Source: Natronomonas aquatica (GTDB lineage: Archaea; Halobacteriota; Halobacteria; Halobacteriales; Haloarculaceae). Taken from it: 64,000 nt of DNA. The stretch lies in the NCBI RefSeq assembly GCF_024449025.1, contig NZ_JAHLKM010000002.1:62001-126000 (forward strand), read 5' to 3'. A program made the position numbers and the translations under genes. Shown here piece by piece: positions 3,037 through 52,465 of the stretch. The notes under the pieces were generated by a model, which saw only the letters and a program-made list of their open reading frames with translations, did no database searches and was not told the DNA's origin. Every line of letters begins with the position of its first letter. The first letter of the stretch is position 1.

Positions 3037-3060
3037 TACTTATTGTTCGGCCAGCGAGTC

Positions 3061-26779: not shown

Positions 26780-26791
26780 TATTGTTTAGTA
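26780..26791 (+). promoter_or_regulatory. TATA-like box of the rightward AAA operon
   Basis: TATTGTTTAGTA lies about 28 bases before the GTG at 26815. This spacing supports that GTG as the start of a leaderless message, in preference to the TTG at 26782 that overlaps the box. Confidence 0.45.
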
Positions 26792-26814
26792 ATCCGGGCG
26801 AATTATCCTCGTCT

Positions 26815-27933: not shown

Positions 27934-28005
27934 TGTCGGGGGCGGGCGATCGAACGGAACCAAAGAACGATACCGATCCGGAGAATATCCGTAGATAACC
28001 GAACG

Positions 28006-29055: not shown

Positions 29056-29061
29056 TCGCCG

Positions 29062-34335: not shown

Positions 34336-36633
34336 TCACACCAGGAAGTCGCCGGTGACCGACTCCTTCGAGTCCTGAACGTACCAGTACATTCCCCGGC
34401 TGGTGTGGACGATGAGCGCGACGACGAAGACGACCGTAAGTCCCATCGAGGCGAACAGCGACCAGCGCGCGATCGTCAGCGCGCTCGCCCGCTGGGAGCG
34501 CTCCTCGGCGACGGTCTCCGCCCGCGTCGTCTCGCCCGCCTCGGTGAACGCCGCCTCGGCGTCGTCGTAGTTCGAGAGCAGCGTCTCCGAACGCTCCTCG
34601 AACTCGCCGTAGTGGGTCGGGTTCAGGATGAGGGGCTGGCCGGGCACCGACACGAAGATGTCCGACTGCATTCCTCCCCAGGTGTTCACCGCCTGCTGGC
34701 GTTCGGTTTCGCCCTCCGAGACCAGCGTGCTATAGGTCTCGAAGGCCGCCTCGGAATCGGCTTCGAGCGACTGGGCGCGTTCGGTATCGCCCCGTAGAGA
34801 CGCGATAAGGGCGAGTTCGCTCTGGATCGACGCCTCCTCGATCGGGGCCGTGTCCTCGGCTTCGAGCTGTTCCTGGTAGTAGGACTCCTGGGTCTGGAGC
34901 CGCGATTCGAGTTCCGACCCCGCCGTGTCGCGAATCGTCATGGCCTGGCTCCGGAGGTCGTCGTCCCGGATCGCCTGTCCGTACGTCGTCATCGTGTCGT
35001 AGGCGACGGCCGCCCTGATGAGTTCTTCCTGGGCCGCGTCGTAGCTTCCGTTTTCGATCAGCTCGTCGGTCGCGGCGATCGCCTCGAGATATCTGATGAC
35101 GCCGTCGCCGAACGTCAGTACGGTCGTCACGTCCTCACGGGGGACATCGTCTTCGCGTATCCGCTGGTCCATCTCGTTGACCAGCTGGACGGTCTGCCCG
35201 GAGGTCTGATCGAGCGCCTCGCTTCCCGCCGGAGCTTCATCGAGATCCTCCAAAAGCGGATCGAGATTGAGCGGGATCGGCGTCGCGGTGACGGTGACCT
35301 CCCGGCTGTCGACGCCCTCGCCGTCGATCACGAACGTCCAGGTGTACCCCGAGCCGATGTCCGCGCTCGGATCGAACTGAACCTCGTAGCCGACGGTCGC
35401 CGAACTTCCGGAGCCGATCGTCGATCCGACGCCGCTCGTCACCTCGATGTACTCTTCGTTTCCGTCTTCGAGGGTCACCTCCGGATTTCTGATGTTCCGG
35501 TACCCGAGTTCCTCGCTGACCGTGACGGACGTCGACTCGGAGTTCCCGATCGGCACGTCGCCGACCCCCGTCTGTGTCGGGCTCACGTCCATCGAGATAC
35601 CGTGTCGGACCTCGATCGTCTCGGAGACGTCCGCGCTGTCGACGCTGGCGTCGCTCGATTGGACCGTGGCATCGAAGTCGTAGCTCCCCTCGCCCATGTC
35701 GGTACTGGCGACGATCTCGATTTCGACCGGCTCGCTCGAATCCGGTGCGATCGTGCCCGGCGTGTCCACCACGTTTACCTCCTGGAAGTCCGTCGAGTCG
35801 ACGTCGACGCCGCCGAAGTCGAGTTCGCGATCGCCGGTGTTTTCGACGTCGATGGTCGCGGTCCGCGTGATCGTCCCGGCGCTCCGGGGCTCGTCGAACT
35901 GGATGAAGCCGACTCCGAGGCTCACGTCGCCGAACTGGGCCGGGAGCGCGACGAACGATTCGAGGGTGACGGAGCTGTCGACGTTGTACCCGTCGTCGGG
36001 ATCGACTGAGAACATCCCGCCGATGTCCGAGTACTGCGCGGCACGGTCGTCGGCCGTGAACGTGACCGTGACCTGGTCGCTCCCGCCGGCGCTGGCGCTG
36101 GCGCTCTCCAAGCCGCTGATCCCGTCGGCGCCGCTTACGTCCAGTCCGTTGAAGCCGCTATAGCCGCCGACCTCCTCGACGGTTACCTGAGCGTCCCGGG
36201 ACTCGCCGCGCAACGCGCCCTCGTCGTCGACCCAGTCCGGAACGTTCGATATCTCGACGTAGGCTGGCGTACGGACGGTGTAATCGACGGTTTCGGTATT
36301 TCCGCCGCCCCCGATCTCCAGCGTCGCCGACTCGGAACCGCCGGCGTTGAGGGTCACGTCGACCGTTGCGCTCTGGCCGGGGCCGACAGTCCCCGGTCCG
36401 GTCGCGCTGTGACCGCCGCCGATCGACGCCGAGATGTCGACGGAGTTGTTCACGTCGTTGTTCGTCACGGTCACTGTATCCGAGATGGTGTTCCCGTCGC
36501 CCGGCTCGAAGGTGAGCGTCTCGCCGCTCTTCCCGGCCGTCCAGTCGCTCGTCTGGGCGGTGACGCCGCCGACGGCGGCCATCGACAGCACACACAGCGC
36601 GGCGACCAACGCGACCGCGGCTCGCTCAGACAT
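34336..36633 (-). CDS. Secreted-membrane protein: CARDB-type ectodomain, helical stalk, C-terminal TM
   Basis: 765 residues. A Sec signal peptide (MSERAAVALVAALCVLSMAAVGGVTAQ) is followed by Ig-like domains to about residue 450 with NEW3/CARDB-like repeats (TVTVTNNDVNNSVDISASIGGGHSATGPGTV split by the Asn-rich strand; IDVENTGDRELDFGGVDV). A long helical region (about 460-700) follows, then one membrane helix at about 718-742 and a 20-residue inside tail. The ATG at 36633 is preferred to a GTG three codons upstream. It overlaps the gene before it by 8 bases and is the last gene of the leftward series. It is an external sensor or adhesion-like anchor by layout; no enzyme motif. Confidence 0.8.
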   Translation of the reverse strand: MSERAAVALVAALCVLSMAAVGGVTAQTSDWTAGKSGETLTFEPGDGNTISDTVTVTNNDVNNSVDISASIGGGHSATGPGTVGPGQSATVDVTLNAGGSESATLEIGGGGNTETVDYTVRTPAYVEISNVPDWVDDEGALRGESRDAQVTVEEVGGYSGFNGLDVSGADGISGLESASASAGGSDQVTVTFTADDRAAQYSDIGGMFSVDPDDGYNVDSSVTLESFVALPAQFGDVSLGVGFIQFDEPRSAGTITRTATIDVENTGDRELDFGGVDVDSTDFQEVNVVDTPGTIAPDSSEPVEIEIVASTDMGEGSYDFDATVQSSDASVDSADVSETIEVRHGISMDVSPTQTGVGDVPIGNSESTSVTVSEELGYRNIRNPEVTLEDGNEEYIEVTSGVGSTIGSGSSATVGYEVQFDPSADIGSGYTWTFVIDGEGVDSREVTVTATPIPLNLDPLLEDLDEAPAGSEALDQTSGQTVQLVNEMDQRIREDDVPREDVTTVLTFGDGVIRYLEAIAATDELIENGSYDAAQEELIRAAVAYDTMTTYGQAIRDDDLRSQAMTIRDTAGSELESRLQTQESYYQEQLEAEDTAPIEEASIQSELALIASLRGDTERAQSLEADSEAAFETYSTLVSEGETERQQAVNTWGGMQSDIFVSVPGQPLILNPTHYGEFEERSETLLSNYDDAEAAFTEAGETTRAETVAEERSQRASALTIARWSLFASMGLTVVFVVALIVHTSRGMYWYVQDSKESVTGDFLV

Positions 36634-37633
36634 CGGTATCACCCATCACGATGACGGAATCGAGGTTTGCGGCCTCGAAGGCCCGCTGCCAGGCGAAGAG
36701 CCGCGAGGCGATCAGCGAGACCACGAGCGCGATCACGAGCCCGTACCCGAGGAGGATCGTCCCCGAGGCGACGGCCAGCGAGGTCCGCATCGCTCTCGCC
36801 GTATCCCGCCGCTGCTGGAGAGCCGACTGGCGGTCCTCGAGGCCGTGTCGCTGGGCCCGCTGTGTGGCGTCGGCCAGCATCGGCGCAACCTGGAGCGCGG
36901 TCCCGTACTGCTGGATCACGCCGACGTTGTGGCTCCCGAGGGCGGCCGTGGAGCTCTCACAGCCGGTACAGGCGTCGGTGAACGAGTCCATCGCCGCCGC
37001 CGACTCGTTCATCGCCTCCCTGTCGGCCGATAGCTCGGCTTCGAGCTGTTCGACCTGTCTGGTGAACTCGGCCGCCTGTTCGGGCTCGTTGGCCCCCTGG
37101 TAAGCCGACGCCGCCATCTCTCGGAGATCGATCTCTGTCGGTGTGTGATCGGTCGCCTCGGCCTCCGAGGCGAGTTCGTCCCCGAGCCGTTCGTAATACC
37201 GCGTCAGCGCCAGCCTCGAGAGCGCGGCCAGGGACTCGTCGTGTGATCGGAGATCGGAGATCGTCGATTCGATCTCGGTGGCGGTTTCGAAGCCGGCCTC
37301 GTACTCCCCGTTTTCGAACTGCGTCTGTGCGGTCTCGAAGGATCTGATCGTCGCGATGACGGCATCGAGTTCGTTCGCCTGTTCGTCGGAAAAGTCGCCG
37401 ACCTGAACCGCCGCGAGCGACTGGGTGTGGAGCGTTTCAAGTTCGCCGTACTCGTCGTAGATCGCCAGGTCGCTCATCCCCCTGAGCGTGCCGAAGTACT
37501 CGTCGGCGGTTTCCGGTTCCGATCCCGACGATTCCTGCGCGACGGTTATCGGCGCCGTTACCGGCGCCAGAAGCGATACGACGACGACCGTGGTGACCAG
37601 TATGACCGTCACCCGAGTGTTCGTTCTGTCCAT
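36626..37633 (-). CDS. Secreted helical protein with C-terminal membrane helix
   Basis: 335 residues. A signal peptide of about 32 residues is cleaved near VAQESSG. The external part is all-helical with tetratricopeptide-like pairing (YYERLGDELASEAEA, ASAYQGANEPEQAAEFTRQVEQL). A Cys pair ACTGCES lies at about 216-222. One membrane helix at about 282-306 is followed by a short basic-hydrophobic tail. It abuts the 1161-residue gene upstream with no gap and overlaps the CARDB gene downstream. The similar signal-stalk-TM design suggests these gene products assemble together at the outer face. Confidence 0.75.
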   Translation of the reverse strand: MDRTNTRVTVILVTTVVVVSLLAPVTAPITVAQESSGSEPETADEYFGTLRGMSDLAIYDEYGELETLHTQSLAAVQVGDFSDEQANELDAVIATIRSFETAQTQFENGEYEAGFETATEIESTISDLRSHDESLAALSRLALTRYYERLGDELASEAEATDHTPTEIDLREMAASAYQGANEPEQAAEFTRQVEQLEAELSADREAMNESAAAMDSFTDACTGCESSTAALGSHNVGVIQQYGTALQVAPMLADATQRAQRHGLEDRQSALQQRRDTARAMRTSLAVASGTILLGYGLVIALVVSLIASRLFAWQRAFEAANLDSVIVMGDTDV

Positions 37634-40600
37634 TCAAAACACCGTCCGGGAGAGTCGTTCCGTGAGCTCCCGATGCTCGAACAGTTCCTCGATCGCGTCC
37701 AAAAGCAGGATCGCGACGTGGACCGAGACGATGCCGTCGGCGCCGCGGCCGGAGCCGTCGATGTCGACCCGCTCGAGCATCTCGCGGGCCGGCGCGATTT
37801 CCGAGAGCGAACCGCGCTCGGCGTCGATACGGTCGGCGACCTCGTCGGCACGCGCGGCGAAGGCACGCCGCGCCGCCATCGGGTCCTCGTTCAGCCGCTC
37901 GATCAGCGTCTTCATGTGGAAATCCCCCGTCCACCGGACGTTCGCCGCGCTCATGTCGGAGCAGGCGGTGAACAGATCCAGGTTCCGCTTCGTCGACATC
38001 GCCTCCGAGATCGTCTCGGTGGCCTCGGCCGCCGCGTCGAGGGTCGCGTCTGCGACGGTGTCGGGGTCGGCGTCGATCTCGGCGAAGTAGTGGCCCCGTT
38101 CGGGGAACGATTCGACCGCATCGAGGACGGTTTCGACGACCGAGGCGTAATACTGCGGGATCGCGACATCGACGCCGGATTTGGCGGTCACGTCCCGGAG
38201 TTCCGTCCGTATCCGGTCGATCCGGTCGCGCTGTGGCGCCGAAAGGCTCCAGGTGAACGACGCCTCCAGCGTCACCGTCTCGGCCGGCTGATCGACGACC
38301 GCGCGATCGTCCCTCGTCTCGAAGAGGTGCTCGAGCTGTTTCGGGGGCGCCAGACTGACTCGGTACCGGCCGACGAGTAGCCGGTCGTCGACGTATTCGC
38401 CGCTTTCGTCGGTCGTCGCTTCTTTCGTCCCCTCTCCGCTGTAGAGGCGTTCGAGAGCCGGCTCCTCGGGGACGATCTTGATGTTCATTCCGCCCGTAGC
38501 GACCCCGTCGATCCGGGACTGGACCCGGAGTTGTCCCGGTCGCTGAGACAGTTCGATCGTTTCGTTGAGCCCATCTTTGGGGAGTTCACGCTCGACCGTC
38601 GCCTCCTGGTATTTCTCGTGGTCGACGACGAGGGCGACCGTTTCGGCTTCGGGCGGGGGATCGAACCGCACTTGTCCACCGTCGCCGGTTTGCTTCGTCT
38701 CCGTCGTTTCGTTCGCCTCCAACCGGACCGACGCATCCGGGATCCGGATATCACGTACTTCGTCCTGTACCGTCACGGAGATATCCGGGAGATCGAATTC
38801 GAGTTTGATCGGTTCGGACGCTCGTCCGAAATCGGCCTCGATGGGATCGGAGGTGTAGGTGCGATTTTCCGTTTCGAGCGTCGCCGAGAATCGCCACTTC
38901 CTTTTCGGTAGCTCCCATTTTTTCCATCCGTCCCTAGTTACCGTGGTTCGTCTATCGGTATTAGCGCCGCTACCGCGGACAGCCTCGATCTCGACCTCGT
39001 CGTTAATCCGATCCGTCCCGTCCGTGATATCGATATGTCTCGTCGTCGTCTTCTGTCTTGTTCCAGTTTGACCCATCTCGTCACTTTCCGATCCGGCCCG
39101 TTTGTCGCCACCCGCATAGCCGATCGCGAACAGCGCTACTACGGCAGCTCCGATTGGTCCCCAGGGATCGAAGGGGACCGGAAGTGATAAGACGCCGAGC
39201 GCGTCGACAAGCTCGATCGCCAGGATCACGACGGAAAAGATTATTACGGCAGCTAAAATAGTGTGTTCAACCTTGTCGTGAATCCCTTTCCACTGGCCAG
39301 CGAGGAACCCGCCGACGGTCGTAACGATCGCACCAACGAGCATGGCGAGAGCGAACAGGACCGTAGTGACTATCGATCCGCCCTCCGGCGGGGAGAGTTG
39401 GACGGCGACGATCCCCGCATCGGTCGCCAGTTCTACCATCCCTCCGTTCGCTTCGAGGGTGACGCCCGATACCTGGAGCCGTTCGCCGTCGATCGAGAGG
39501 TCCTCACCGGAGAGGTACGTCGACCCGGACTCGGTCCCGATCAGCACCGACGAGACCGACAGGGCTTCGAGGCTCCGATCGGTCTCGATCGTCGTGCCGT
39601 CGACGAGCGTCGCGTTGATCGACGCCGTCTCGGCGCCCGGTCCCTCGACCTTTTGCTCCCCGAGGAGGTCGCCGACCGAAACCGTTACCATGTTCGCGCC
39701 GGCGGCTTCGCCGTCGTTCGGGACCGGGATCGCACCGTCCCGAACCGCCGTCGCGTCGGTCGAGGTCTCGTTCTCGGCGTCGTCGATACTGTGGACCGTG
39801 ACCGTGTGTTCGACCCCGTCCTCAATGTGCGGATGCCAGAGGACGATCTCGCCGTGCAGATAACGGATTTCAGGTGACGTCCCGCTGGCGGAACCGACCG
39901 GGGCTCCGTCCGTTTCGAAGCCGTCTGCCGTCGTCTCGTCGGGGGCGACCTCCTCGCGGAACGTTCCGAGATCGATCTCGACCGTCCGGGGATCGGTCAG
40001 CGATGCGTCCACCGTCTCGCCGGCCAGCACCAGTGACACGTCCGTCACGCTGGTGTTGGTGACGCCGACGGTCTCGACCGGTAGATAGAGCGTTCCGTCC
40101 TCGGTCCAGCCGCCGAAGGACGCCGACTCGACGGTGTGGAGGTCGGCCTCGTCCGAAAGCTCCGTATCACTCACTTCGACCGTCGTGCCGACCAACGAAG
40201 TATCGTCGATACCTCCGGATCCTGGCACCGATAACCGGTGCTGATACAGGCCGTTTTCCGGGGTAAACGCGCTTATATTCCAGGTCCATTGTACGGTCCC
40301 TGGATCGGTTCCTAAAGTAATCTCTCCGTTCGGAACCGAGCCGTTCGGCCCAACGGCAGATTCCGCGAGGGTAACAGTAATATGATCCCGGGATGTCCGC
40401 GCGGCGGCGAACTGTTCCTCATCGGAGAATCCGACGAGAACTGATCGGTTCTCGTCCGAACCGTCCGCGACGCTAACCACGAGATCCATCATCCCCAGAT
40501 CGCGGTCCGTGGTCGAATACGAGAACGTTTCCTCGGTCGCCTCGCCGGATCCGAGTTCGATCGACCTCGATTCGATCGTTCCCTGGTCGTTCTCGATGGA

Positions 40601-41119
40601 CACCGTCGTCTCCCCCGAACCGCCGGTGTTTTCGATCTCGGCGGTCAACTCGACGGTCTCTCCGGCGCTAACCGAGTCGGGCGGGCCATCGGTGATGCTG
40701 ATATCGAACTGCGACTCTCTGTTGACGGTGAACGTCCCGGTTTGCTCTGCGTCGCCGATGGAGACGGTGAAATCAGCCTCGTCGGGAAGGTGCCCATCGA
40801 CTGTGTAGGTGAGATCGACGGTGGTCGTTTCGTTCGGATCGACTGCTCCGGTCTCGGCCGTATCGACCTCACTTCCGTTAATGTCGAGACGGACGGTTCC
40901 GTTGGCCGCGCTTCCGCCGGTGTTTTCGACCGTCGCTTCGACGGTTATCTCTTGGCCGACGCTGGCTTCCCCGGGAGCGTCGACGGAGTCGATTCCGAAC
41001 GTTCCGGTATCGGTCTGGGCGACCGCTACGGGGGCAAAGAGGAATCCGACCGCGGCGAGGACGGCGAGAGCGGCGACCGCGGTCCGGGCGTACCCGAGGT
41101 GATCGGTAGGTCGCGTCAT
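37634..41119 (-). CDS. Large CARDB-type membrane protein with cytoplasmic helical domain
   Basis: 1161 residues. A signal peptide ends near VAVAQTDT (about 35). Two clear CARDB-type units follow: VGQEITVEATVENTGGSAANGTV (about 54) and SAGETVELTAEIENTGGSGETTV (about 150). More beta-rich ectodomain runs to about 575. Three membrane helices lie at about 582-606, 617-640 and 650-668. Inside are carboxypeptidase-regulatory-like beta domains (IPDASVRLEANETTE; VATGGMNIKIVPEEPALERL) and a helical C-terminal domain of about 270 residues. A long chain linking the cell surface to the cytoplasm, placed next to tubulin 1, could couple filaments to the envelope. It ends 2 bases after the tubulin 1 stop. 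Confidence 0.8.
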   Translation of the reverse strand: MTRPTDHLGYARTAVAALAVLAAVGFLFAPVAVAQTDTGTFGIDSVDAPGEASVGQEITVEATVENTGGSAANGTVRLDINGSEVDTAETGAVDPNETTTVDLTYTVDGHLPDEADFTVSIGDAEQTGTFTVNRESQFDISITDGPPDSVSAGETVELTAEIENTGGSGETTVSIENDQGTIESRSIELGSGEATEETFSYSTTDRDLGMMDLVVSVADGSDENRSVLVGFSDEEQFAAARTSRDHITVTLAESAVGPNGSVPNGEITLGTDPGTVQWTWNISAFTPENGLYQHRLSVPGSGGIDDTSLVGTTVEVSDTELSDEADLHTVESASFGGWTEDGTLYLPVETVGVTNTSVTDVSLVLAGETVDASLTDPRTVEIDLGTFREEVAPDETTADGFETDGAPVGSASGTSPEIRYLHGEIVLWHPHIEDGVEHTVTVHSIDDAENETSTDATAVRDGAIPVPNDGEAAGANMVTVSVGDLLGEQKVEGPGAETASINATLVDGTTIETDRSLEALSVSSVLIGTESGSTYLSGEDLSIDGERLQVSGVTLEANGGMVELATDAGIVAVQLSPPEGGSIVTTVLFALAMLVGAIVTTVGGFLAGQWKGIHDKVEHTILAAVIIFSVVILAIELVDALGVLSLPVPFDPWGPIGAAVVALFAIGYAGGDKRAGSESDEMGQTGTRQKTTTRHIDITDGTDRINDEVEIEAVRGSGANTDRRTTVTRDGWKKWELPKRKWRFSATLETENRTYTSDPIEADFGRASEPIKLEFDLPDISVTVQDEVRDIRIPDASVRLEANETTETKQTGDGGQVRFDPPPEAETVALVVDHEKYQEATVERELPKDGLNETIELSQRPGQLRVQSRIDGVATGGMNIKIVPEEPALERLYSGEGTKEATTDESGEYVDDRLLVGRYRVSLAPPKQLEHLFETRDDRAVVDQPAETVTLEASFTWSLSAPQRDRIDRIRTELRDVTAKSGVDVAIPQYYASVVETVLDAVESFPERGHYFAEIDADPDTVADATLDAAAEATETISEAMSTKRNLDLFTACSDMSAANVRWTGDFHMKTLIERLNEDPMAARRAFAARADEVADRIDAERGSLSEIAPAREMLERVDIDGSGRGADGIVSVHVAILLLDAIEELFEHRELTERLSRTVF

Positions 41120-41121
41120 GG

Positions 41122-42351
41122 TTATCCGGCGTTGGGGTCGGTGTACTCCTCGAGGTTCGTCACGATCTGATCGAGTTCGGCGTGTGTGAGGTCGGTCTCA
41201 CCGCCGCCATTCGAGCCGGCCAGACTCTCCCCGAGCATCTCGAAGTCGTCCCAGGAGTGATCCAAAAGCGGATCCAGATCGAATCCCCCCAACAGGAGCA
41301 ACACGTCCACGTCGCTTCCCTTCCCGCGCTTCGGCGTCAGGCTCGCCTGTCCCGCGACGTTGATCCCGTGGCTGTCCGTCCAGTCGCGGAACGCGTCGTA
41401 GACATCGGGTTCGGATATCTCGCCGTTGTCGATCATCGATTCGGGTGCCCGAACGATCGCGTACGCCGCCCGCGTCGTCTCGACGTCCATCGGCACGAAC
41501 GTGTTTTCGGCCGCCTGTTCGAGCATGTACTCCAACTCGAAGATGGACCCGTCCAGATCGGTCGCGACCGCTGGCGTGAAGTGGTAGGCGTCCATCTGGG
41601 AGGGGATCGTCACGTAGTCCTTGATATCGATGACGCTTCTGGTTTCCCTACCGGCCCCGATCATCAACTCGACCGCCTCGATGATCGCGCCGTTGATCGA
41701 GTCGTACTGCCCGTTTCCGTCGTCGCTGGCGGCCTCCAGATGCGAATTCGCCCCCAAAAGCACCATACCGGCGTTCTGAGTCCCGTCCTCGGTTCGCAAC
41801 AGCCGGGAGAGCCCACACACCGCGTTGAAGTGTCGTTGGGGCTGTTCGTAGTAGTAGGGCCACACGCCGAAGGCAGCATGGATGACGCTTTCCATCCAGT
41901 CCTCGACGTCGACGCTTTGGGCGTCCGGGAGGCCGTTCTTGAACTGGTCGATGAGGTACGGGATCGAGCCGTTTCCGGTTCCGCCACCCAGCGTCGCGAT
42001 ATGCATGAACGCGTCCGTCCCGCTCATCTGATCCTGAATGTCGCCAACGATCCGATCGAGGTCCTCGAGGGCGCAAGCCTCCCCGTTCGGGAAGAAGTTC
42101 CCGGCTCCCTGCTGGGAACCGAACTCGAGAGCGTGGGTGTTCATCAGCTGTTCCTCGTCGCTACCGGATCCGATATGCTCCTGTAATCGGTCGATCGTGT
42201 TCCGGAGGTCGGATCGGTTGGTGTTCATCACCAGGATCCGTTCGTCGATCCCGGGGTTCTCCGCGCGATCGAAAAACTGCGAGGCGATCCGCCCACCGCC
42301 CTCACCCGATGCGATTACGCTCCATCTCGTAAACGTGTCTGATGCTGCCAT
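41122..42351 (-). CDS. Tubulin/FtsZ-superfamily protein 1
   Basis: 409 residues. The GTP-binding loops of the superfamily can be followed: T1-like SGEGGGRIASQFFDRA (about 15-30), T2-like VMNTNRSDL (41-49), T3-like GSQQGAGNFF (78-87) and the tubulin signature T4 GGGTGNGS at 122-129. The C-terminal activation-domain-like half follows (about 250-370), and the acidic tail ends YTDPNAG. It is not a canonical FtsZ or CetZ: the T1 loop and spacing differ and the catalytic T7 loop (NxDxxD) is not obvious. It resembles the Tubulin_2/FtsZ-like families. It starts 6 bases after the long coiled-coil gene. Confidence 0.85.
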   Translation of the reverse strand: MAASDTFTRWSVIASGEGGGRIASQFFDRAENPGIDERILVMNTNRSDLRNTIDRLQEHIGSGSDEEQLMNTHALEFGSQQGAGNFFPNGEACALEDLDRIVGDIQDQMSGTDAFMHIATLGGGTGNGSIPYLIDQFKNGLPDAQSVDVEDWMESVIHAAFGVWPYYYEQPQRHFNAVCGLSRLLRTEDGTQNAGMVLLGANSHLEAASDDGNGQYDSINGAIIEAVELMIGAGRETRSVIDIKDYVTIPSQMDAYHFTPAVATDLDGSIFELEYMLEQAAENTFVPMDVETTRAAYAIVRAPESMIDNGEISEPDVYDAFRDWTDSHGINVAGQASLTPKRGKGSDVDVLLLLGGFDLDPLLDHSWDDFEMLGESLAGSNGGGETDLTHAELDQIVTNLEEYTDPNAG

Positions 42352-42357
42352 TGTCAG

Positions 42358-44445
42358 TTATTCTATCTTGATCGCCGTCGCCGTCGTCGTCACGTCCTCG
42401 CCCGTTTCCAGCCCGGCGACCATCTCCCGTATGGTCGCGTCTGGCAGCGGTACCGACAAGAAGTTTTTTTTCGCCTCCTCGAACCGCAACTCGTCGCCGG
42501 CCTCGATGTTGTACCGGACGGTGTTTTTGAGCTCGCGCTCGACCTGTGAGCGGTCGTAGACGATGACCTCCTCGTCGGACTCGACGAGGTCGTACCCGTT
42601 GCGCTCGCTCCAGATGGCGATGAGACACGGAACGTACGAGTCCCGGACCGGCAGCTCCATCCCCGTCGAAACGTATCCCTGCTCCTCGAACGTCGAGGAG
42701 ACTTGCGAATCGATCGCCGGAACGTGCTCCCCCATGTCCTGGTCGAAGTCCGAACACAGCCGCTCGCGGAGCGACCGTTCGGCGAACTCGACCGCAGTCG
42801 TCGTGTCGCCGTCGACCTCCAGTTCGCGTTCGACCGACCCGAACGCCTCGTCCCCGGGGTCTCCCGAAAGGGTGTACGTTCCGGCCGGCACCTCGTCGAA
42901 TTCGACGGACGCGGCGACCCGAGTTTCGACGGTTTCGCGCTCCGAATGGACGCCACCGTCGAGTTCGACGGTCGCCTGCCGGAGTTCGCCGCCGCGCTCG
43001 TACTGGAGGTCGACCGTCACGTCGTGTCGCTCGACGTCGCCCCGCCGGAGCACCCCTTGGGCCGGATCGAACTCGATCGAGGGGTTGCGTCTGTTATAGA
43101 GTCCGAGGAACTGTTCCGCGTGACGGACCGGGAGGTCGTCGGCCGTCACCTCGCCGGCCTCCTGCAATCGGGTGTCGATCTGACCGGCGAAATCGTCGTA
43201 CGCCTCGACGACGGACGCCTTCGTTCGTGCCGTTTCGAGGGCGTCGGTCAACCGTGCGGCCGCGTCGGCCCACTCGGCGGTGAACCGCTCGAAGTCGTCG
43301 ATGTCTTCGAGCGTCTCCGCGAGCGATTCCTCGACGACGGGCGGTTCGTCGTAGTACCCGCCGGGAAGCTCCGCCGACTGGAGCGTCCGGACGGCGTCGT
43401 CGAGGTCGCGCTCCATCGACCGGATCATCGTGACGCAGGTCCGTCTGAGCTGTGCCTGCTTGCGCGTCAGTTCGGCCAGTTCCAGCGCCGAATCGAGCGA
43501 CTCGACCTCGTCGCGCATCTTCGTTATCTCGTCGACGTACTCGGCGTCGACGTGTTCGTCGACGTTCGATCGTAACACGGCGTCGAGGAGGTCGGAAAGC
43601 CGATCGCGCTCCGCTTCGAAGGAGCCGGATAACTGATCCCGAAGCCGGTCTCTCGCCTCGAGTATCGACTCGGTCGCGGCGTAGTAGTCGTGGTTGTCGG
43701 CCGCTCCGGACGCCGATTCCAGTTCCGCCTCGATGGCGTCGATATCGTCGGGACGCATATCGCCCCGTGTCATCTCACGGACCGTCTCGATCGCCGCCTC
43801 GATCGCCTCGTCGGCTTCCTCCCGAGCCTCGTCCAGCGTGTCCCGGTACGCCGGGATCGGGTCCGTTGCGGGGGGGAGCGACACCGACGGCGCGGATCGA
43901 ACGAGATCGACGTCCTCCAGACGGGCGGTCTGAGATTCGATCTCGTCGGTCTCTTCCCGGGCGAACTCCCGGAACAGCTCCTCGAACTCGTCGTGGAAGG
44001 ACTCGATCTCCGTCTCAAGGCGTTCGAACTCCTGAACGTCGGCACTGTCGACGCTGCCGGTGAGTTCGAAGGACCCCGATCTCGGTTCGAACCGGATGCC
44101 CTGGGTCCCGAAGTCCGCGACCAGCGAGTCGACGCGGGCGTCGACGCTCTGCGACCAGTTGGGATAGGCGTCCCGGAGATCGTTCAGCGTCCGGAGGTAG
44201 TCCTGAAACGTCTCAGCGACGCTCCGTCCGCGCTTTCGGACGTACTGCTGTTCGCTGGTTTTGCTCCGTGTAATCAACCCCCGTACGTACAGCGCGATCC
44301 CTGCGACGACGACGATCGGGATGCCGATCATCGTCGCCCAGACGACCTCGGACATCCCCGTGAGGACGAAGACAATCGCACCGCTCGCGGCTGCAGCCAC
44401 GACGAGACCACCGATACTGAGTATTGTTCGTGTGCTCGAATTCAT
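42358..44445 (-). CDS. Membrane-anchored coiled-coil protein
   Basis: 695 residues. Two helices at the N-terminus (about 8-30 and 33-56) form a hairpin anchor. The rest is cytoplasmic: long acidic helices with coiled-coil character from about 70 to 450 (FERLETEIESFHDEFEELFREF; ARDRLRDQLSGSFEAERDRLSDLLDAV), then a beta-rich carboxypeptidase-regulatory-like unit (VRLRRGDVERHDVTVDLQYE region, about 460-540) and an alpha/beta C-terminal domain ending TTTATAIKIE. The start at 44445 overlaps the preceding stop (ATGA); an upstream extension is rejected. The gene is directly before tubulin 1, so it may be its membrane anchor. Confidence 0.8.
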   Translation of the reverse strand: MNSSTRTILSIGGLVVAAAASGAIVFVLTGMSEVVWATMIGIPIVVVAGIALYVRGLITRSKTSEQQYVRKRGRSVAETFQDYLRTLNDLRDAYPNWSQSVDARVDSLVADFGTQGIRFEPRSGSFELTGSVDSADVQEFERLETEIESFHDEFEELFREFAREETDEIESQTARLEDVDLVRSAPSVSLPPATDPIPAYRDTLDEAREEADEAIEAAIETVREMTRGDMRPDDIDAIEAELESASGAADNHDYYAATESILEARDRLRDQLSGSFEAERDRLSDLLDAVLRSNVDEHVDAEYVDEITKMRDEVESLDSALELAELTRKQAQLRRTCVTMIRSMERDLDDAVRTLQSAELPGGYYDEPPVVEESLAETLEDIDDFERFTAEWADAAARLTDALETARTKASVVEAYDDFAGQIDTRLQEAGEVTADDLPVRHAEQFLGLYNRRNPSIEFDPAQGVLRRGDVERHDVTVDLQYERGGELRQATVELDGGVHSERETVETRVAASVEFDEVPAGTYTLSGDPGDEAFGSVERELEVDGDTTTAVEFAERSLRERLCSDFDQDMGEHVPAIDSQVSSTFEEQGYVSTGMELPVRDSYVPCLIAIWSERNGYDLVESDEEVIVYDRSQVERELKNTVRYNIEAGDELRFEEAKKNFLSVPLPDATIREMVAGLETGEDVTTTATAIKIE

Positions 44446-45164
44446 ACCATCACCCGGATTAGATCGATCGCTCCGAGATACCACAACAGTCCGATCGCCC
44501 CGAGAAGGAGGACGATCCCCGCGACGGCCGGGACCAGCCCGGCACGGCGGTTATACGAGACGTCCCGACTGAGTTTCATCTGATCGCGGACGTTTTTTGC
44601 CTCCATGAGCGGGACGGCTGCCCCTAGAAGCGCTCCGCCGAGTAGCCCGGCTACGAGCGCCCCGCCGAAATACATGAGAACGGTCGAACGGGCGTCTACT
44701 CGCTGTGTGCTGACCGCGTTCTCGTACTCGGAGAGCGAGTTCTCGGCCGTCGTCACCGTCTCGTTCCGCTCTTCGCTCATCTCCTGCCGGACCAGGAACC
44801 GCTCCGCAGGGGAGAGGTCATCGGATCGAAGTTCGCTTGCGGCCTCGCTCTCGGCGTCGCGGAGATTATCGAGCCCCTGTTCCATCTCCGAGAGGGACTC
44901 GTTGGCGCTGCCGTGGTGCTCGTCCGTGTAGGAACTCGAATTTTCGATCGCGACGGCGGTTTCACGTAACGATCCGGACGCGTTCTCGATCCGGCCAGCG
45001 GCGTTCTCGAACTCGGTCGCTTCGGATTCGAACTCGGAGGAGGTCGAGACGTTCGTCCCGAAGGCGTCGCCCGACCCCTGTGCCGCGACCGGCGCCGCGA
45101 TCCCGGCGGAGATCCCCCCGACGACGAACAGAACCGTCACGACGAGCGTGCTACGACGAATCAT
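44442..45164 (-). CDS. Secreted helical protein with two C-terminal membrane helices
   Basis: 240 residues. The signal peptide ends near PVAAQGSG (about 28). The external part to about 160 is helical and carries several N-glycosylation sequons (NVS, NAS, NSS, NES, NET). Membrane helices lie at 161-187 and 209-232 with a 20-residue basic loop between. Overlaps of 4 bases join it to genes on both sides. The short sister design (signal, helical stalk, TM) recurs three times in this operon. No known family. Confidence 0.75.
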   Translation of the reverse strand: MIRRSTLVVTVLFVVGGISAGIAAPVAAQGSGDAFGTNVSTSSEFESEATEFENAAGRIENASGSLRETAVAIENSSSYTDEHHGSANESLSEMEQGLDNLRDAESEAASELRSDDLSPAERFLVRQEMSEERNETVTTAENSLSEYENAVSTQRVDARSTVLMYFGGALVAGLLGGALLGAAVPLMEAKNVRDQMKLSRDVSYNRRAGLVPAVAGIVLLLGAIGLLWYLGAIDLIRVMV

Positions 45165-45394
45165 GAGTGCAGTCTGGCTCTGATCTGTCTCCGTTTGTAT
45201 AGGTATACTCCGACGCCAGCGACGAGGATCCCGACCCCAAGCCCGAGCAGCGCGCCCCCGCCGGCGAGGGCGACCGCTTGATCGGCCAGCGCAGCGAAGC
45301 GCCTCGTCAGCTCCCCTGCCTGGCGCGCGTCGCTCGGCGAGAGTTGGCCGACGACGATCGACGCGAGCGCGACGAGTTCGGCCATCCCGCTCAT
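45161..45394 (-). CDS. Small membrane protein between tubulin 2 and the stalk protein
   Basis: 77 residues starting MSGMAELVALASIVVGQLSP, a hydrophobic N-terminal segment, then a short helical stretch (SDARQAGELTRRFAALADQAVA) and a Gly/Leu/Val-rich membrane helix at about 43-65 with the basic tail YKRRQIRARLHS. The start is 2 bases after the tubulin 2 stop, and its stop overlaps the next start (ATGA). The longer frame upstream is antisense-like Arg-rich sequence within tubulin 2 and is discarded. Its tight coupling suggests a structural subunit. Confidence 0.65.
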   Translation of the reverse strand: MSGMAELVALASIVVGQLSPSDARQAGELTRRFAALADQAVALAGGGALLGLGVGILVAGVGVYLYKRRQIRARLHS

Positions 45395-45396
45395 GT

Positions 45397-46698
45397 TTAT
45401 ATCATCATCTGCTCCGATTGGTCCTCCTCGTACGCCTCGGCGATCGATTCGATCTCCGCGATCCGACCGAGGTCCTCGCGCCGGTAGGTCAGAAGCGTCG
45501 TCAGCGAGGCCAGCTTCCGGTCGCTGAGGGCGATCCCGAGGTTCACCTCGCTCAGCCCACAGCTCCGTTCGAGGAACTCCTGAATGGTCGCGGTCTCGAC
45601 GCTGTGGCTCCCGTCGGTGAGGTACGAACTCGGGGCTCGGACGAGCGAGATGGCCTTTTGAGCCTTCTGGCTGTCGGCGTTGGCCAGCGTCTGTTTTGAC
45701 GCCGACAGCCGGGACAGCGCCGCGCTGTCGATCTCGCGCTTCCCGACGAAAGGTAACAGATAGCCCGGAAGCGTCTGTGTCATCGAGACGGATCGCCCGA
45801 TCGCGGCGTATCCCGGGCGTGAATCCCCCCCGATCCCGAATGAGAGGGAGGTCACGATGTCCTGAACGTCGATATCGGGCGTATCGACGCTCTCGACTTC
45901 GCTGGCGTCGACGCTGCTGAACACCGGTCCCGTGATCAGATCGTACAGCGACGCCGCGACGTAGGCGTTGTACTCCCCGAACTGCCCCGCCGAGGAGTCG
46001 AGATAGGAGATCCGTTGGTTGTCGACGAGGACGATCCCGTCGGCCTCGTCCTCGAGGCGATCGAGCCCGTATCTCGCGTTCCACGCCTGCCGTCCGGCGG
46101 CGATCCCGTCGTCGTTGGTGTCGTCCTCGACCGACCCCTTCGTGTTCGGCAGGATCGCGACCGCGATTACTTGGGCGTGACCGTCGGTGTACCGTTTGAT
46201 CTGGCGGGCGAGATGGGGGCCGATTCCACAGCCTGTCCCGCCGCCGAGACCGAGACACAGGAACACGAAATCGATCGTGTCGGACGCCGCCGGGGCCGGT
46301 GTCGTCGCCTCCCCTCCCTCCCCCTCCTCTTCTCCCGGTGGCGGCGCCGTCGCGCCGAACCGGCGGTCGAGCAGGTTCTGGACTTCGGTGTCGTACTGGA
46401 CCATCACCTCGTCGGCCCTGACCGGATCCCGGCCGAAGCCGCCGGTGACCATCTCTTCGAATCCCGGCTCGGACCGTTCCACCAGCCCGTGTTGTTCCGC
46501 GATCCCGAACTGGTTTTCCTCGGGGATGTTCGCCAGGTTCTCGAGGTCGCGGATGGTCGAGTTGAACACGAACGGCGTCCCGAGTGTCGAGATATCGGGA
46601 CTGCTGAACAGGCCTAGCAACGAGTCGTCGGTGTACTCGAACAGCGCGTCGACGATCGCTCCCCCTGCCTGCCCTGCCCCCACAAACAAGTATGTCAT
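45397..46698 (-). CDS. Tubulin/FtsZ-superfamily protein 2
   Basis: 433 residues. T1 is FVGAGQAGGAIVDAL (5-19). T2-like FVFNSTIRDLENL lies at 44-56 and T4 GGGTGCGIGPHLARQI at 152-167. An acidic Pro/Glu/Gly insert sits at about 116-140 before strand S4. C-terminal domain motifs include VTSLSFGIGGDSRPGYAAIG (about 284-303). The Cys inside T4 and the large insert distinguish it from FtsZ. A TATA-like box at 46728-46738 lies about 35 bases upstream, so it starts its own transcription unit running through at least seven tightly spaced genes to 34336. Confidence 0.87.
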   Translation of the reverse strand: MTYLFVGAGQAGGAIVDALFEYTDDSLLGLFSSPDISTLGTPFVFNSTIRDLENLANIPEENQFGIAEQHGLVERSEPGFEEMVTGGFGRDPVRADEVMVQYDTEVQNLLDRRFGATAPPPGEEEGEGGEATTPAPAASDTIDFVFLCLGLGGGTGCGIGPHLARQIKRYTDGHAQVIAVAILPNTKGSVEDDTNDDGIAAGRQAWNARYGLDRLEDEADGIVLVDNQRISYLDSSAGQFGEYNAYVAASLYDLITGPVFSSVDASEVESVDTPDIDVQDIVTSLSFGIGGDSRPGYAAIGRSVSMTQTLPGYLLPFVGKREIDSAALSRLSASKQTLANADSQKAQKAISLVRAPSSYLTDGSHSVETATIQEFLERSCGLSEVNLGIALSDRKLASLTTLLTYRREDLGRIAEIESIAEAYEEDQSEQMMI

Positions 46699-46790: not shown

Positions 46791-48896
46791 TCACCCTCTG
46801 AGCCGTCTGAGCATCACGCTGTACTCGTTGCGCTCGTAGAGTTCCTCGACGTGGTCGAGCACCGCGTCGGCGGCGAGTAACACGCCGGCCGCCCGCTGGG
46901 GTCTGGTCGTGAGCTCCTGCTCGGCGTCCGCCGACAGTTCCTCCGCCAGTGCGAGGAAATGTTTCGGGATCGAATGGTTGTGGTCGGGCCTGACCGAAAC
47001 GAACTCGGACCTGATGTCCTCGATCCGCCCCCGAACGGTCGAGAGTAGTTCGTCGACGTCGTCGGACTCCCCACCCGAAAGCGACCGGGAGAGACGCGGG
47101 ATCAGGGTCCGGTCGTAGTAGGAGATCTCCTGGTAGATGGCGTACAACTGGATGTCGTCGATCGATTCGGGGTCGTTGAGGAGTGCCTCCAGTTCCCGAA
47201 CCCGATCGGCGAGGTGGCTGTACACCGGTGTGTCCTGGGTGGTGAGCTCCCGATCCAGCGAATCGAGCCGTCGCTGGACATCGTCGGGGCCGATCTCCGA
47301 CAGCATCTCACGCGTCTCGGCGTACTCGTCGAGTACCTCGACGCTCTCGCGGATCGTCGCTTCGAGTTCCGACTCGTCGTCGGGACTTCTGAGCCCGTCG
47401 ATCAGTTCCCGCGAGAGCCCGCTCGACGGGCGGGCCTGGCGATCGATCGTCTCGGCGATAGACTCGATCGGGGTCGACGGCTCGGTTACGACCACGTCCT
47501 CCCGCTGGAGTGCCGTCGCGAGTTCCGACAGCCGCCCCTCGGCGTCCCGGCTCTCGAACGAAACCGAGCCGGATCGGGCCGCCGCCTCACACACTGTCTC
47601 GGCCTCGCCGATCACGGCCTCGCGGTCGTCCTCCTGCTGTTCGAGCTTCCGGTTCGTCCGGATCAATCGGTCGACGAGCGGTTCGATCGCCGACGGGAGA
47701 CGGCCCTGCTGTCGGTCGAGATCCCGCTTGATGTTCTCGTACACTTCGACGGTCGAACGGCGATCGGCGGGTTTGACAGCCTCGGAGACGGCCGCCCCGG
47801 TTTCGAGCCGTTCGACGGCCTCGGAGATCGCCGACCGAACCTCGTCTTCGTCGGCCGACTCGTCGGTCAGAACGCGACAGAGTTTCCGGGCGGTCGAGGA
47901 GTCGAACTCGGTCCGCCGCTCGACGCTACCGGCGGCCTCGGCGACGACCGGCGGTGACGAGTCCCGCTCTTCTTCGGTGTCCGACGACTCCCCCGTTTCG
48001 GCGGATTGGGTCTCCGTTCCCGGTTCGAACGGCGATCCGGCGCCACACGAGGGACAGAAATCGACATCGGGGGCGATCCGGTCGCCGCAACTCAGACACT
48101 CGCGTTTCGGCTCCGGTTCCGACTCGGCTCCGGCTGTACCGCCTTCCGAGTCGGAACCGGATGACCTGGTGCCGGTGCTGGCCTCCGTCCCCGCTGTCGA
48201 CTGTCCCTCCGTACTCGAACCGTCCTGCGGCTGCTGTTGGGTGGTCCGCTGACCCATCGACATGTTGCGTCCGGACTTGACGTCCCGGAGCCGCTTTCTG
48301 ACCGCGCTTATCGCGGCGTCGACCGTCTCCGTCGCCCCGGACCCGACTTCGATCGATTCGCCGCCCGCAGTCCGTATCTCGAGGGTGGAGTAGTTCCCGT
48401 CCTGGTGGGAATCGACGGCCGTAATCTGGTCGTAGAACAGTTCGCGGTTCGTGCCGCCGCTGCCGGCCTCCCGCGACGCCATGTTGTACTTGGCCCCCTG
48501 GTTGATGTTGACCGACGTTCCGGTGACGACGAGCGTCGTCGTCCGGTAGGTACGCGAGGGTTTGACGAACGGCGGCGACTTCCCGTTGCCCCTGGTGAGG
48601 GAGTATGTACCGGCCTCGGCGACGTCGATCCCCCTGGCGGCGCTCCGTTCAGCCTGCGAGACGAACCGGTTCAAAAGCTCCTCGTAGTTCGCGTTGACGA
48701 CCCGCGTCCCCCAAAAGTAGATCCCGAACCCGGCGAGCAATCCGAAGAAGGTGATGATCCCGATCTGTCCGGCCTGGTCGACGACCATGAACCCGATCGT
48801 GGCCACTATCAGCGTTATCCCGATGATCGTAATCCAGAAATTCCACCCGATCCACCACGCGATCCCGTTGACGTCCTCTTCAGCGGTCATATACAA
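46791..48896 (-). CDS. Membrane protein with PH-like, zinc-ribbon and coiled-coil regions
   Basis: 701 residues (Met-3 is an alternative start). Two N-terminal helices at about 12-40 and 44-65 are followed by a beta-rich PH-like domain (about 95-210: YRTTTLVVTGTSVNI, ELFYDQITAVDSHQDGNYSTLEI). Then come a Ser/Gly/Gln-rich linker, a zinc ribbon with two Cys pairs (CLSCGDRIAPDVDFCPSC, about 267-284) and a long helical region to the end with coiled-coil stretches. All but the helices should be cytoplasmic. A PH-like domain next to the membrane suggests lipid or partner binding. It sits between tubulins 2 and 3. Confidence 0.78.
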   Translation of the reverse strand: MYMTAEEDVNGIAWWIGWNFWITIIGITLIVATIGFMVVDQAGQIGIITFFGLLAGFGIYFWGTRVVNANYEELLNRFVSQAERSAARGIDVAEAGTYSLTRGNGKSPPFVKPSRTYRTTTLVVTGTSVNINQGAKYNMASREAGSGGTNRELFYDQITAVDSHQDGNYSTLEIRTAGGESIEVGSGATETVDAAISAVRKRLRDVKSGRNMSMGQRTTQQQPQDGSSTEGQSTAGTEASTGTRSSGSDSEGGTAGAESEPEPKRECLSCGDRIAPDVDFCPSCGAGSPFEPGTETQSAETGESSDTEEERDSSPPVVAEAAGSVERRTEFDSSTARKLCRVLTDESADEDEVRSAISEAVERLETGAAVSEAVKPADRRSTVEVYENIKRDLDRQQGRLPSAIEPLVDRLIRTNRKLEQQEDDREAVIGEAETVCEAAARSGSVSFESRDAEGRLSELATALQREDVVVTEPSTPIESIAETIDRQARPSSGLSRELIDGLRSPDDESELEATIRESVEVLDEYAETREMLSEIGPDDVQRRLDSLDRELTTQDTPVYSHLADRVRELEALLNDPESIDDIQLYAIYQEISYYDRTLIPRLSRSLSGGESDDVDELLSTVRGRIEDIRSEFVSVRPDHNHSIPKHFLALAEELSADAEQELTTRPQRAAGVLLAADAVLDHVEELYERNEYSVMLRRLRG

Positions 48897-48990: not shown

Positions 48991-50631
48991 TCACGGCATG
49001 TTTTCTCGGCCGAGACAGGAGAACAGCGGTTCGATATCCGACCAGACGTCGCGGATGTTATCGGCCTGCTCGCTGTTGCCTTCCTGTTTGAGCTTCTTGG
49101 CGTGGTCGTACATCTCCTCTAGGGGCGGCATCTCGGGGTTCCACAGCGTCCCCCACAGGTAGACGTCGTCGAGATACGGCGTGACGAGTTGGTTGACGTG
49201 GATGTCGATCGACTCGGAGCCGTTCGTCCCGTCGGCGTCGAGGAACTCGTCGCTCGCGAGGATCTCGGAGACGACCCCGTCGTTGACGAGTTTCGAGATC
49301 TCTTCCATTTTCTCGTTGGGTCCGTACAACAGGAACGTACCGCCCCAGGAGGTGGTCGGATCGAACTCGGCGAGTTTGTTCTGAAACAGCGCGTTCCGCG
49401 CGAGGATTTCGAGTTTAGATCGGTCGAAGGAGTCGGCCCGCATGCGGCCGAGCACCGGTGCCAGGATGACGGCCGGGGTGTACTCGCGTTCGGGATCAAC
49501 CTGGTATTTGTCCTGGACCGGCCGGAAGCTGTCGGCCGGGTCGAAGACGTCGCCCATGATCGACATCGTCGCCTCCCGGTCGAGGAACTGCGGCACCGAC
49601 GACATCGTAAACGCCTCCAGGAACGCGACGAGCGGTTTGTTGATCTCCTGGTACTGGGGTGGGTTGTACTCGTCGAGGCGGTTGATACGGGGGTGGATCT
49701 CGCTTTTGACGCTATCGAGCCGCTGGTTGTCGAAGGGGATGATTGCGTCGACGGCCTTCGAAGCGCGCGTCAGCCCGACGATCCCGTTGACCTTCGCCCT
49801 CCCGCCGAAATCAGCGTACCGCCGGCCGCGGGACGGCAGGACGATGCTGCTGAAGAACGGCTTTTGCACCACGAAGTCGTCGTCGAGGACGCGCTCCCGG
49901 ATCATGTCAGCGAGCACCGGCGTCGCCCCACAGCCGGTCCCTTTCGTGACGCTGTGGATGAACATGATCGCCTGTGAGTCCTTGAGGTGCTGCTGTTTGA
50001 TGTCCCACCGCTCCTGGAAGGGGTTGGCGTCGTCCTCGAAGTCGGCTTCGATGAGATCGCGGCCGAGGTCCCAGCGGAACCCGGCCCCCGCGTAATCGTG
50101 CTTCCCGAAACCGATGATACAGTTCGGCAGCAGGTCGTTGCGGCTGTACCCGTGTTCCTCCTGTGCGTAGTAGGTCTGTTCGAGTTCGCTCACGTTCGTG
50201 TTGAGCGCGCCGTAGCCCGCCAGCCCGCCGTTCCAGATCACCGCGCGCTGTTCGTGGTTCTCCTCTAAGGTGTCCCGCCGGAGGAGGATCGCATCGAGGA
50301 TATTGTTTCCCGCTCCGCCGACGCCGATCAGATACCACTTCTTCCCGTAGGCGTCGTCGAGGTGATCGTCGGTCGGCGTCTCGGACGCGATCGTATCGAT
50401 CCCCGTATCGGTCTCGATCGGGTCCTCGGTTCCCATCGTCGCCCCCGTGCTCGCGCCGTTCTCCGGCGATTCAGCCGGGTCAGGGCCGCTGAACACGTCC
50501 TCGACCAGGTCCGGATACATCGTCTCGATCGACTGCCGTTCGTCGCGGTGTCTGGCCCGGATGTGTTCGACGAGCGTGTCGCTGTCCCACTGCCCCGTTC
50601 GTTCCATACAGATCTTACATACCCGTGTCAT
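48991..50631 (-). CDS. Tubulin/FtsZ-superfamily protein 3 with N-terminal C2H2 zinc finger
   Basis: 546 residues. The first 30 form a C2H2 finger: Cys5, Cys8, His23, His28. An acidic linker of 60 residues follows. The GTPase domain then shows the most FtsZ-like T1 of the three, LIGVGGAGNNILDAI (101-115), T2 ALNTNVSELEQ (142-152), T3 GAGFRWDLG (182-190) and a T4 altered to VTKGTGCGATPVL (228-240), with Lys where the first Gly of GGGTG stands. Length is well above FtsZ because of inserts. The finger suggests a protein or nucleic-acid partner. It begins a leftward run 97 bases after the preceding gene's stop, with an AT box near 50670-50676. Confidence 0.87.
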   Translation of the reverse strand: MTRVCKICMERTGQWDSDTLVEHIRARHRDERQSIETMYPDLVEDVFSGPDPAESPENGASTGATMGTEDPIETDTGIDTIASETPTDDHLDDAYGKKWYLIGVGGAGNNILDAILLRRDTLEENHEQRAVIWNGGLAGYGALNTNVSELEQTYYAQEEHGYSRNDLLPNCIIGFGKHDYAGAGFRWDLGRDLIEADFEDDANPFQERWDIKQQHLKDSQAIMFIHSVTKGTGCGATPVLADMIRERVLDDDFVVQKPFFSSIVLPSRGRRYADFGGRAKVNGIVGLTRASKAVDAIIPFDNQRLDSVKSEIHPRINRLDEYNPPQYQEINKPLVAFLEAFTMSSVPQFLDREATMSIMGDVFDPADSFRPVQDKYQVDPEREYTPAVILAPVLGRMRADSFDRSKLEILARNALFQNKLAEFDPTTSWGGTFLLYGPNEKMEEISKLVNDGVVSEILASDEFLDADGTNGSESIDIHVNQLVTPYLDDVYLWGTLWNPEMPPLEEMYDHAKKLKQEGNSEQADNIRDVWSDIEPLFSCLGRENMP

Positions 50632-50728: not shown

Positions 50729-52465
50729 TTACCGGCCGCTCGAGTACCGGTCGAGGAACCGATCGACGAGTTCGTCGATCCCGTCCGCGACGGCCGTCCT
50801 GTCAGTGAAACGGATCTCGAGGAAGCCGGGCGGGGCGTTCTCCTGTAGCGTGACTCGCTCGACGATGTCGGACTGTCGACGACAGAAGGTCGCCAGTGCC
50901 GCGAGCGTTCCCGGATCCGCGACTCTTTCGGGGAGCTTTTCGGTTTGGTACTCGACGACGTTTCCGTCGGATCGGTCGCGCTTGAGTTCCCGCAGAGTAT
51001 AGAGGATCTCGTCAGTGAGCTCCTCGGGGTCGACCGTCTCTGGAGCGGGGCCTCCGCCGGATCCTCCGTGAGCGTGCTCCGGTTCCCGCTCGGGGCCGGT
51101 ATCGGCTCTCCTGACGGAACGGGATTTCTCGCCGGTGTTCTCGATCAGGATCCGTTCGTCCTCGATGGAGAGCCCCACACCGTACTGCTGTTCCAACAGC
51201 GGTTCGAGTTCGGCGTAGAGCTGTTTCGCGATCCCGTTCGGGATCCGGGCGGACCGTTGACCGTGTTCGATCCCGCCGATGAGGCTCCGGAGGAAATCGA
51301 CCGCGGTCAAAAGCGCCTCCGACTCCGAACGTAGCTCCCGAAGCTGCTGTGTCGCCTCGGCGAACGTACACTCGTGGAGGTCGGACTTCGCCTCGGCGAT
51401 CCCGTTCTCGATGCCCCCGACGCCGTCGAACTCAGAGTGGCGATTCTCGATGACCAGCATCCGTGTCCGCTCCCCGACCGTACCGTCGATCTCGTCGGCC
51501 ACCGTTCGGATTGATTCGATATCGGATCGGACCTCGTTCAGTATCCGGTCGAACTCTTCTTCCCGTTCCCGGACATAGGATTCTATATCCGACCGGTGGT
51601 CGTCGATCGCCTCGATCGCGAACGCGATGTCCCGAATCGAGATCTCCTCGTCGTCGATCCAGTCCCGGACGTGTCGTTCGAGTTCGCCGACGTGGCATCG
51701 ACCGCCGACAGTCGGGAGATCGAGTTCCCGGAGCCGGGCGGGCAGGTTGACGATCTCGTATCCCTCACCGTACCTGGACGCGACGGACATCTCGAACCAG
51801 CCGTCGGCGAGTGCGGTTTCAATCCCGCGGTAAAGCTCCGTTTCGATCCTGTCGTCGCCCTGAGCCGCGTTCTCGCGGGCGTACCGGACGGCGTCGGGTG
51901 CGATCTCCTCCAGCCGATCGAGCGTCGCGTTATCGACGGTCGAGGGATTCGGCTCAGTATCGGGAGCGTCCCCGCTGACCGTGTCAGCGTGGCTGTCACG
52001 CTCCGAATCAGATCCGGTATCCGAACGTCCGCTGGAGGGGGTTTGGTCCGGCATCAGTACGAGCGCGCCGACGACGCCGCCGACCGTAACGACCGAAACC
52101 AGCAGTACCAAGAGAAGCGACGCGAGTGCGCCCGCCGAAATGGCGGAGACGGCGAGCCAGCCGAACAACAGGACGACCACGACGCCGGTACCGACGCCGA
52201 ATGCGATCCCGAGCCGTCGCTCGCTGCGGACGAAGAGGGCGATCCCCTGCCCCAGCCAGCCGAGGGCGCCGAAGAAACAGAGGACGGACACGGCCCCCGC
52301 ACCGCCCTCGGTCGCCACCGCCGCCCCGTAGAACCCCGGGACAATCAGCAATCCAGCCGCCGTATCCGTTCCGACAGCGCCGGCCACAATGGCCTGTAGT
52401 AACGACACCGCAAGCGGGATTCCGGCCGCAGCCCACGCCAGGAGTGCCCCCCGATTGTACCGCAT
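50729..52465 (-). CDS. Polytopic membrane protein with cytoplasmic coiled-coil domain
   Basis: 578 residues. About five helices (8-28, 36-52, 56-78, 84-106, 112-139) are followed by an acidic linker, a mixed domain (about 180-280: [32 protein letters not shown]) and a coiled-coil rod (about 285-400: [21 protein letters not shown]). A second linker with His/Gly/Pro leads to a small alpha/beta C-terminus. The ATG at 52465 is set by the promoter: minus-strand TTTATATA is centred 27-28 bases upstream. It is the first gene of the leftward series and may be the primary membrane base for tubulin 3. Confidence 0.78.

Follow-up and report, generated by a model that had tools for sequence, protein, structure and literature searches.

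Gene content and distribution of the island

The window, meaning the whole 64,000-nucleotide stretch of Natronomonas aquatica DNA that was analysed, carries a conserved island of 15-16 genes at positions 26782-52465. Three of these genes (p7, p5 and p2) encode divergent proteins of the tubulin family, and p7 is the reading frame that an earlier note on this DNA had described as a tubulin-family protein with a C2H2 zinc finger. The genes are given below in window coordinates, with the basis of each assignment in parentheses.

26782..29697, plus strand: u26, u28 and u29, three more conserved genes (extended loci)
29690..31285, plus strand: Cdc48-like AAA ATPase (PF00004, 104.9 bits)
31282..34257, plus strand: beta-propeller (PQQ_2-like) protein of the convergent arm (Pfam; extended loci)
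34336..36642, minus strand: o34, Ig-like secreted or membrane protein (PF22544; extended loci)
36626..37633, minus strand: o36, with signal peptide and C-terminal transmembrane segment as judged by eye (synteny; extended loci)
37634..41119, minus strand: p1, CARDB-domain membrane protein (Pfam; synteny)
41122..42351, minus strand: p2, third tubulin-family protein, T1 SGEGGGR, T4 TLGGGTGNG intact (PF00091, 37.4 bits)
42358..44484, minus strand: p3, membrane-anchored helical or coiled-coil protein (synteny)
44442..45164, minus strand: p4, predicted secreted or membrane helical protein (synteny)
45161..45394, minus strand: small predicted single-transmembrane protein of 77 amino acids, between p5 and p4 (reading frame)
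45397..46698, minus strand: p5, CetZ-like tubulin, T1 GAGQAGG, T4 GLGGGTGCG intact (Pfam; motifs; model)
46791..48896, minus strand: p6, cassette member with N-terminal membrane region, PH-like domain and helical C-terminal region (synteny; hhalign)
48991..50631, minus strand: p7, putative zinc-finger tubulin of 546 amino acids (PF00091 and 38-sequence alignment)
50729..52465, minus strand: p8, cassette member with polytopic N-terminal membrane region and helical C-terminal region (adjoins p7 in all syntenic loci)

About 36 other loci share the order p8-p7-p6-p5-(p4)-p3-p2, although divergence hides p4 from BLAST in roughly half of them and the p7 of L073 was recognised only in a second pass. 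In seven genomes and on plasmid PHS2 of Halobacterium salinarum R1, the conserved region extends to p1, o36, o34 and a convergent arm made up of the beta-propeller protein, the Cdc48-like AAA ATPase (55-87% identity in the seven extended loci and PHS2) and up to three more genes. The propeller arm is also found on a Natrinema plasmid. PHS2 and a Natrinema plasmid have similar-sized small genes, matched by place and size, at the position of the gene at 45161-45394. The p6 homologue in Natrinema has a bPH_2 match, while a p6 zinc ribbon considered as a second conserved zinc site was rejected, its four-cysteine pattern occurring in only 8 of 38 sequences. In two genomes (loci L058 and L060), the genome-search match to p5 contains one in-frame TGA though the open frame is approximately full length.

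Among 394 Halobacteria genomes searched with p7, 41 gave a match, and 40 remained after exclusion of one weak match (L079) at which no island synteny was detected. The finger-tubulin fusion that the earlier note proposed to seek elsewhere is thus present, though patchily, across the Halobacteria. The alignment used here comprises 38 distinct p7 homologues with identity down to 33%. No p7 was found outside the Halobacteria in a 394-genome phylum sample, and a scan of genome contigs returned only close relatives. Some copies of the island are located on megaplasmids; on the basis of its plasmid location, VNG6260G ("cetZ5", pNRC200) is plausibly homologous to one of the three tubulins. The Halobaculum halobium plasmid NZ_CP126159 carries a second island copy (L076, 21416-23031) in which both p7 and p5 are broken into two frames and which seems to be a duplicate in decay; an intact copy (L065) lies on the same contig. 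A viral or phage origin was also considered and rejected, as tblastn gave no match in phage records or viral contigs and the viral structural matches were to general tubulins.

Family placement and nucleotide site of p7

Membership of the superfamily was defined by profile and fold, with a deviating T4 loop marking a variant. The p7 protein scores 44.5 bits against Pfam PF00091 (cut-off 33), all 38 homologues match this profile at E values up to 1, and a structure search (AlphaFold and Foldseek) returned CetZ, FtsZ and OdinTubulin folds, with CetZ and OdinTubulin among the top matches, although the T7 region and C-terminal domain of the model are poor (pLDDT below 50). Thus, p7 is a genuine member of the tubulin superfamily. 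It is not an FtsZ by the equivalog model TIGR00065 (35.1 bits, cut-off 295.2), it has neither the GxGQAGG T1 loop of CetZ nor a place in the CetZ clade, and matches of its family to Tubulin_2/FtsZl1 (PF13809) stay below the cut-off, with 9 of the 38 members giving weak matches (E 7e-4 at best). In a quick tree, whose deep order is unsure, p7, p5 and p2 form three separate clades with 100% support each, and similarly long branches separate them from FtsZ1/FtsZ2 and CetZ. The p5 protein has a CetZ-like T1 loop and fold (model pTM 0.82; TM-score 0.83 to CetZ1, on target) and lies outside CetZ, which it joins with only 86% support. The source genome has eight PF00091 matches, comprising FtsZ1, FtsZ2, additional CetZ-type genes and the three divergent genes of the window. 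In RefSeq the p7 homologues are labelled "cell division protein FtsZ", a name that conceals the system in databases.

Two elements of the nucleotide site were located in p7:

49924..49944, minus strand: T4 loop KGTGCGA, residues 230-236, preceded by Thr229 (Thr229-Lys230 replace the first two glycines of GGGTGTG)
49531..49542, minus strand: T7-like DxxD, D364 and D367 (invariant in 38/38; FDPAD aligned by hhalign on FtsZ VDFAD)

The T1 loop is GVGGAGNN, as the earlier note had read it, at residues 103-110, and the Asn of T6 is also kept. The T7 acids are assigned by alignment, the model being unsure at T7; DxxD is invariant in each of the three tubulins, and in the p5 model it opens the helix that follows the predicted T7 loop, the place it should have in H8. 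The T4 loop reads HSVTKGTGCGATP. The lysine that the earlier note observed there is present in 37 of 38 homologues, with Asn in L077 as the exception, and there is no return to Gly among the relatives, but its position needs correction: in a profile alignment with FtsZ it occupies the second glycine of GGGTG rather than the first. In an hhalign comparison with the FtsZ and CetZ proteins of the same genome, Thr229-Lys230-Gly231 falls on the three glycines of the motif. The signature GGGTG[ST]G is consequently altered in p7 (TKGTGCG) and intact in p5 and p2, which makes p7 the only one of the three tubulins with a changed T4 loop.

We take Thr229-Lys230-Gly231 to correspond to positions 105-107 of E. 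coli FtsZ. Thr229 then aligns with the site of ftsZ84 (G105S), whose GTPase activity is 0.47 compared to 7 GTP/FtsZ/min (PMC4603965). The suggestion of the earlier note that p7 might bind GTP without normal hydrolysis is strengthened by this correspondence, since the T1, T6 and T7 elements are kept while the ftsZ84 site is changed. Alternatively, Lys230 could be a replacement catalytic or phosphate-sensing lysine, similar to that of a P-loop, such that it might help catalysis rather than hinder it and p7 would be a competent GTPase, perhaps active as a monomer. The near-constant lysine, together with the conserved T1, T6 and T7 elements, is consistent with this possibility. However, no tubulin known to us uses a replacement catalytic lysine of this kind, the adjacent Gly-to-Thr change lies at a low-GTPase position, and L077 dispenses with the lysine altogether, so that a catalytic role appears unlikely.

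The p8-p7-p6 cassette and the N-terminal finger

In two divergent loci, L077 and L078, the finger-tubulin is located between a p8 homologue (hhalign 99.9%, E 3.8e-37) and a p6 homologue (hhalign 99.1%, E 1.2e-18), without p5 or p2. Conversely, L134 and L135 keep p5, p3, p2, p1 and o36, and no p6, p7 or p8 was detected in either; p7 is therefore not obligatory for p5 and p2, and the two sets of loci in combination define p8-p7-p6 as a separable cassette. In L134, a divergent pair of genes encoding 733 and 1000 amino acids lies upstream of p5 in place of the cassette. At L077, which belongs to a distant genome and has a p7 identity of about 30%, the cassette adjoins a Tubulin_2/FtsZl1 gene (PF13809, 44.5 bits, cut-off 27) and a beta-propeller gene. 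Around L078 there are genes for a propeller-like protein and a kinase, as well as a tubulin-like reading frame that is unclassified. This last frame (2154-3521, plus strand, 456 amino acids) has GLGGGG, GGSGNG and VDND motifs and is tubulin-like by eye, with no Pfam match.

The main functional rival to a filament machine is an NTP-dependent conflict (defence) role of the island, in which the tubulins would be oligomerising effectors. Modules of tubulin and vWA domains, as well as beta-propeller MoxR systems, have been described as conflict systems (PMC7159879), and the patchy distribution, the plasmid copies and a bpMoxR-like match near L078 agree with such a role. On the other hand, the PADLOC matches on the island were all weak ones to coiled-coil or "control protein" entries, and defence-system membership was rejected on them; no nuclease or toxin effector is recognisable in it, and its gene order is very stable, unlike that of modular defence loci. 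A conflict role is, in our view, improbable.

The finger at the N-terminus of p7 has the following position:

50548..50631, minus strand: C2H2-like finger, residues 1-28, with C5, C8, H23 and H28 (ligand invariance; model helix 20-28)

The finger follows the pattern C5-x2-C8-x14-H23-x4-H28, and the four ligands named by the earlier note are invariant in 38 of 38 homologues, as is the C-x2-4-C and H-x3-5-H form of a C2H2 finger. The same ligands and the T4 lysine are both found in the p7 of L073, a 39th sequence missed in the first pass. Neither outcome that the earlier note had named as refuting it, a missing or variable finger and a lysine that reverts to Gly in close relatives, was therefore seen. 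The spacing between the histidines is x4 in all homologues, while that between the second Cys and the first His is usually x14, occasionally x11 or x12, and x9 in L077; at 33% identity, L078 retains a textbook C-x2-C-x12-H-x4-H finger. The AlphaFold model is confident for the finger, whose helix spans residues 20-28, and for the two helices after it (block pLDDT 76-91, residues 1-48). Beyond this block, the linker (residues 49-94) varies in both sequence and length. No member of the family reaches the cut-off of the Pfam zf-C2H2 profiles (best E 0.16, one member), hence "C2H2-like" is the safer label for this putative zinc-binding element. In Natrinema sp. SYSU A 869, the RefSeq start (L093 18025; K6I40_RS07150) lies 8 codons past a conserved ATG, with loss of both finger cysteines, and such mis-called starts may conceal the finger in databases.

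The earlier note had offered a partner or DNA as the target of the finger. Docking to a partner agrees with the membrane and coiled-coil genes p8 and p6, which are constant neighbours of p7. If the finger bound DNA instead, the island could be a DNA-segregation system comparable to the TubZ systems of plasmids. The megaplasmid location of some copies accords with this, but most of the neighbouring genes encode membrane or secreted proteins, a lone short zinc finger rarely binds DNA by itself, there is no phage match, and no support for DNA binding by the p7 finger was found in this analysis; we regard this possibility as very unlikely. Most improbable of all is a coincidental pattern or a wrong start codon, as might be argued from the silent Pfam finger models and the one RefSeq entry (Natrinema) that begins at M9, past the cysteines, given that all 38 sequences keep the four ligands but not the linker and that every homologue has an in-frame ATG directly ahead of the Cys pair.

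A proposed filament machine and its relation to known systems

Taken as a whole, the explanation that we tentatively favour, with slightly less than even confidence, is that p7 is the founding member of a haloarchaeal clade of the tubulin superfamily whose N-terminal C2H2-like finger sits on a flexible linker, that it forms the constant core of the three-gene cassette p8-p7-p6, and that it serves in a multi-tubulin filament as a subunit docked to the membrane, with slow or no hydrolysis. Under this proposal, p7 would bind guanine nucleotide through the conserved T1 loop and T6 Asn and, with its T7 acids kept, enter head-to-tail filaments with p5 and/or p2. Since T-K-G-T-G stands in its T4 loop in place of G-G-G-T-G, hydrolysis of GTP by p7 would be slow or nil, and p7 could accordingly form a stable or capping subunit of the filament. 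The finger would tether this subunit to p8 or p6 at the membrane, allowing the assembly to act in membrane remodelling, and the Cdc48-like AAA ATPase would dismantle it. In its most specific form, an archaeal heteropolymer of three tubulins, with one subunit docked at the membrane by its finger and bearing a built-in non-hydrolysing site and with a dedicated AAA ATPase for disassembly, the model is more speculative and on balance doubtful.

More generally, the island suggests an undescribed membrane-linked filament machine. A stable multi-tubulin island of this kind would show that archaea have multi-subunit tubulin machines apart from those of division (FtsZ) and shape (CetZ), and its function is directly testable in Halobacterium salinarum R1, a genetically tractable carrier of the island on plasmid PHS2, where OE_RS12070 is the counterpart of p7. 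In the open-access literature, which set the scope of the search, no zinc-finger tubulin or three-tubulin island was found; a 2023 survey grouped the unexplained archaeal members of the tubulin superfamily as "non-canonical" (PMC9856176).

Among known systems, CetZ (CetZ1 and CetZ2 of Haloferax volcanii) shares the tubulin fold and the haloarchaeal setting, and in structure comparisons its members come closest to p5 and rank near the top for p7. Unlike p7, CetZ lacks a finger and has an intact GGGTG, whereas the T1 loop of p7 is FtsZ-like, and p7 and p5 each form a clade of their own. FtsZ1 and FtsZ2 resemble p7 in the GxGGAGN T1 loop and the T7 DxxD, but p7 falls below the FtsZ equivalog cut-off and the host genome encodes both FtsZ1 and FtsZ2 besides. 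The FtsZl1/Tubulin_2 systems, for which Makarova and Koonin (2010; PMC2875224) proposed a role in membrane remodelling, are likewise multi-gene loci with membrane proteins, and the finger-tubulin of L077 adjoins a true Tubulin_2 gene. In contrast, p7 itself is not a Tubulin_2 protein, and the window island, in which no vWA or kinase domain was found, combines three separate tubulins with a Cdc48-like AAA ATPase. The MoxR-vWA-beta-propeller and GTPase-tubulin conflict systems (PMC7159879) similarly place an AAA ATPase, a beta-propeller or a tubulin in one locus, while the AAA protein of the window is Cdc48-like (PF00004), its island has no recognisable effector, and no vWA domain was found there. 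Finally, the site proposed for p7 would follow a logic comparable to that of alpha-tubulin, which also has a non-hydrolysing site.
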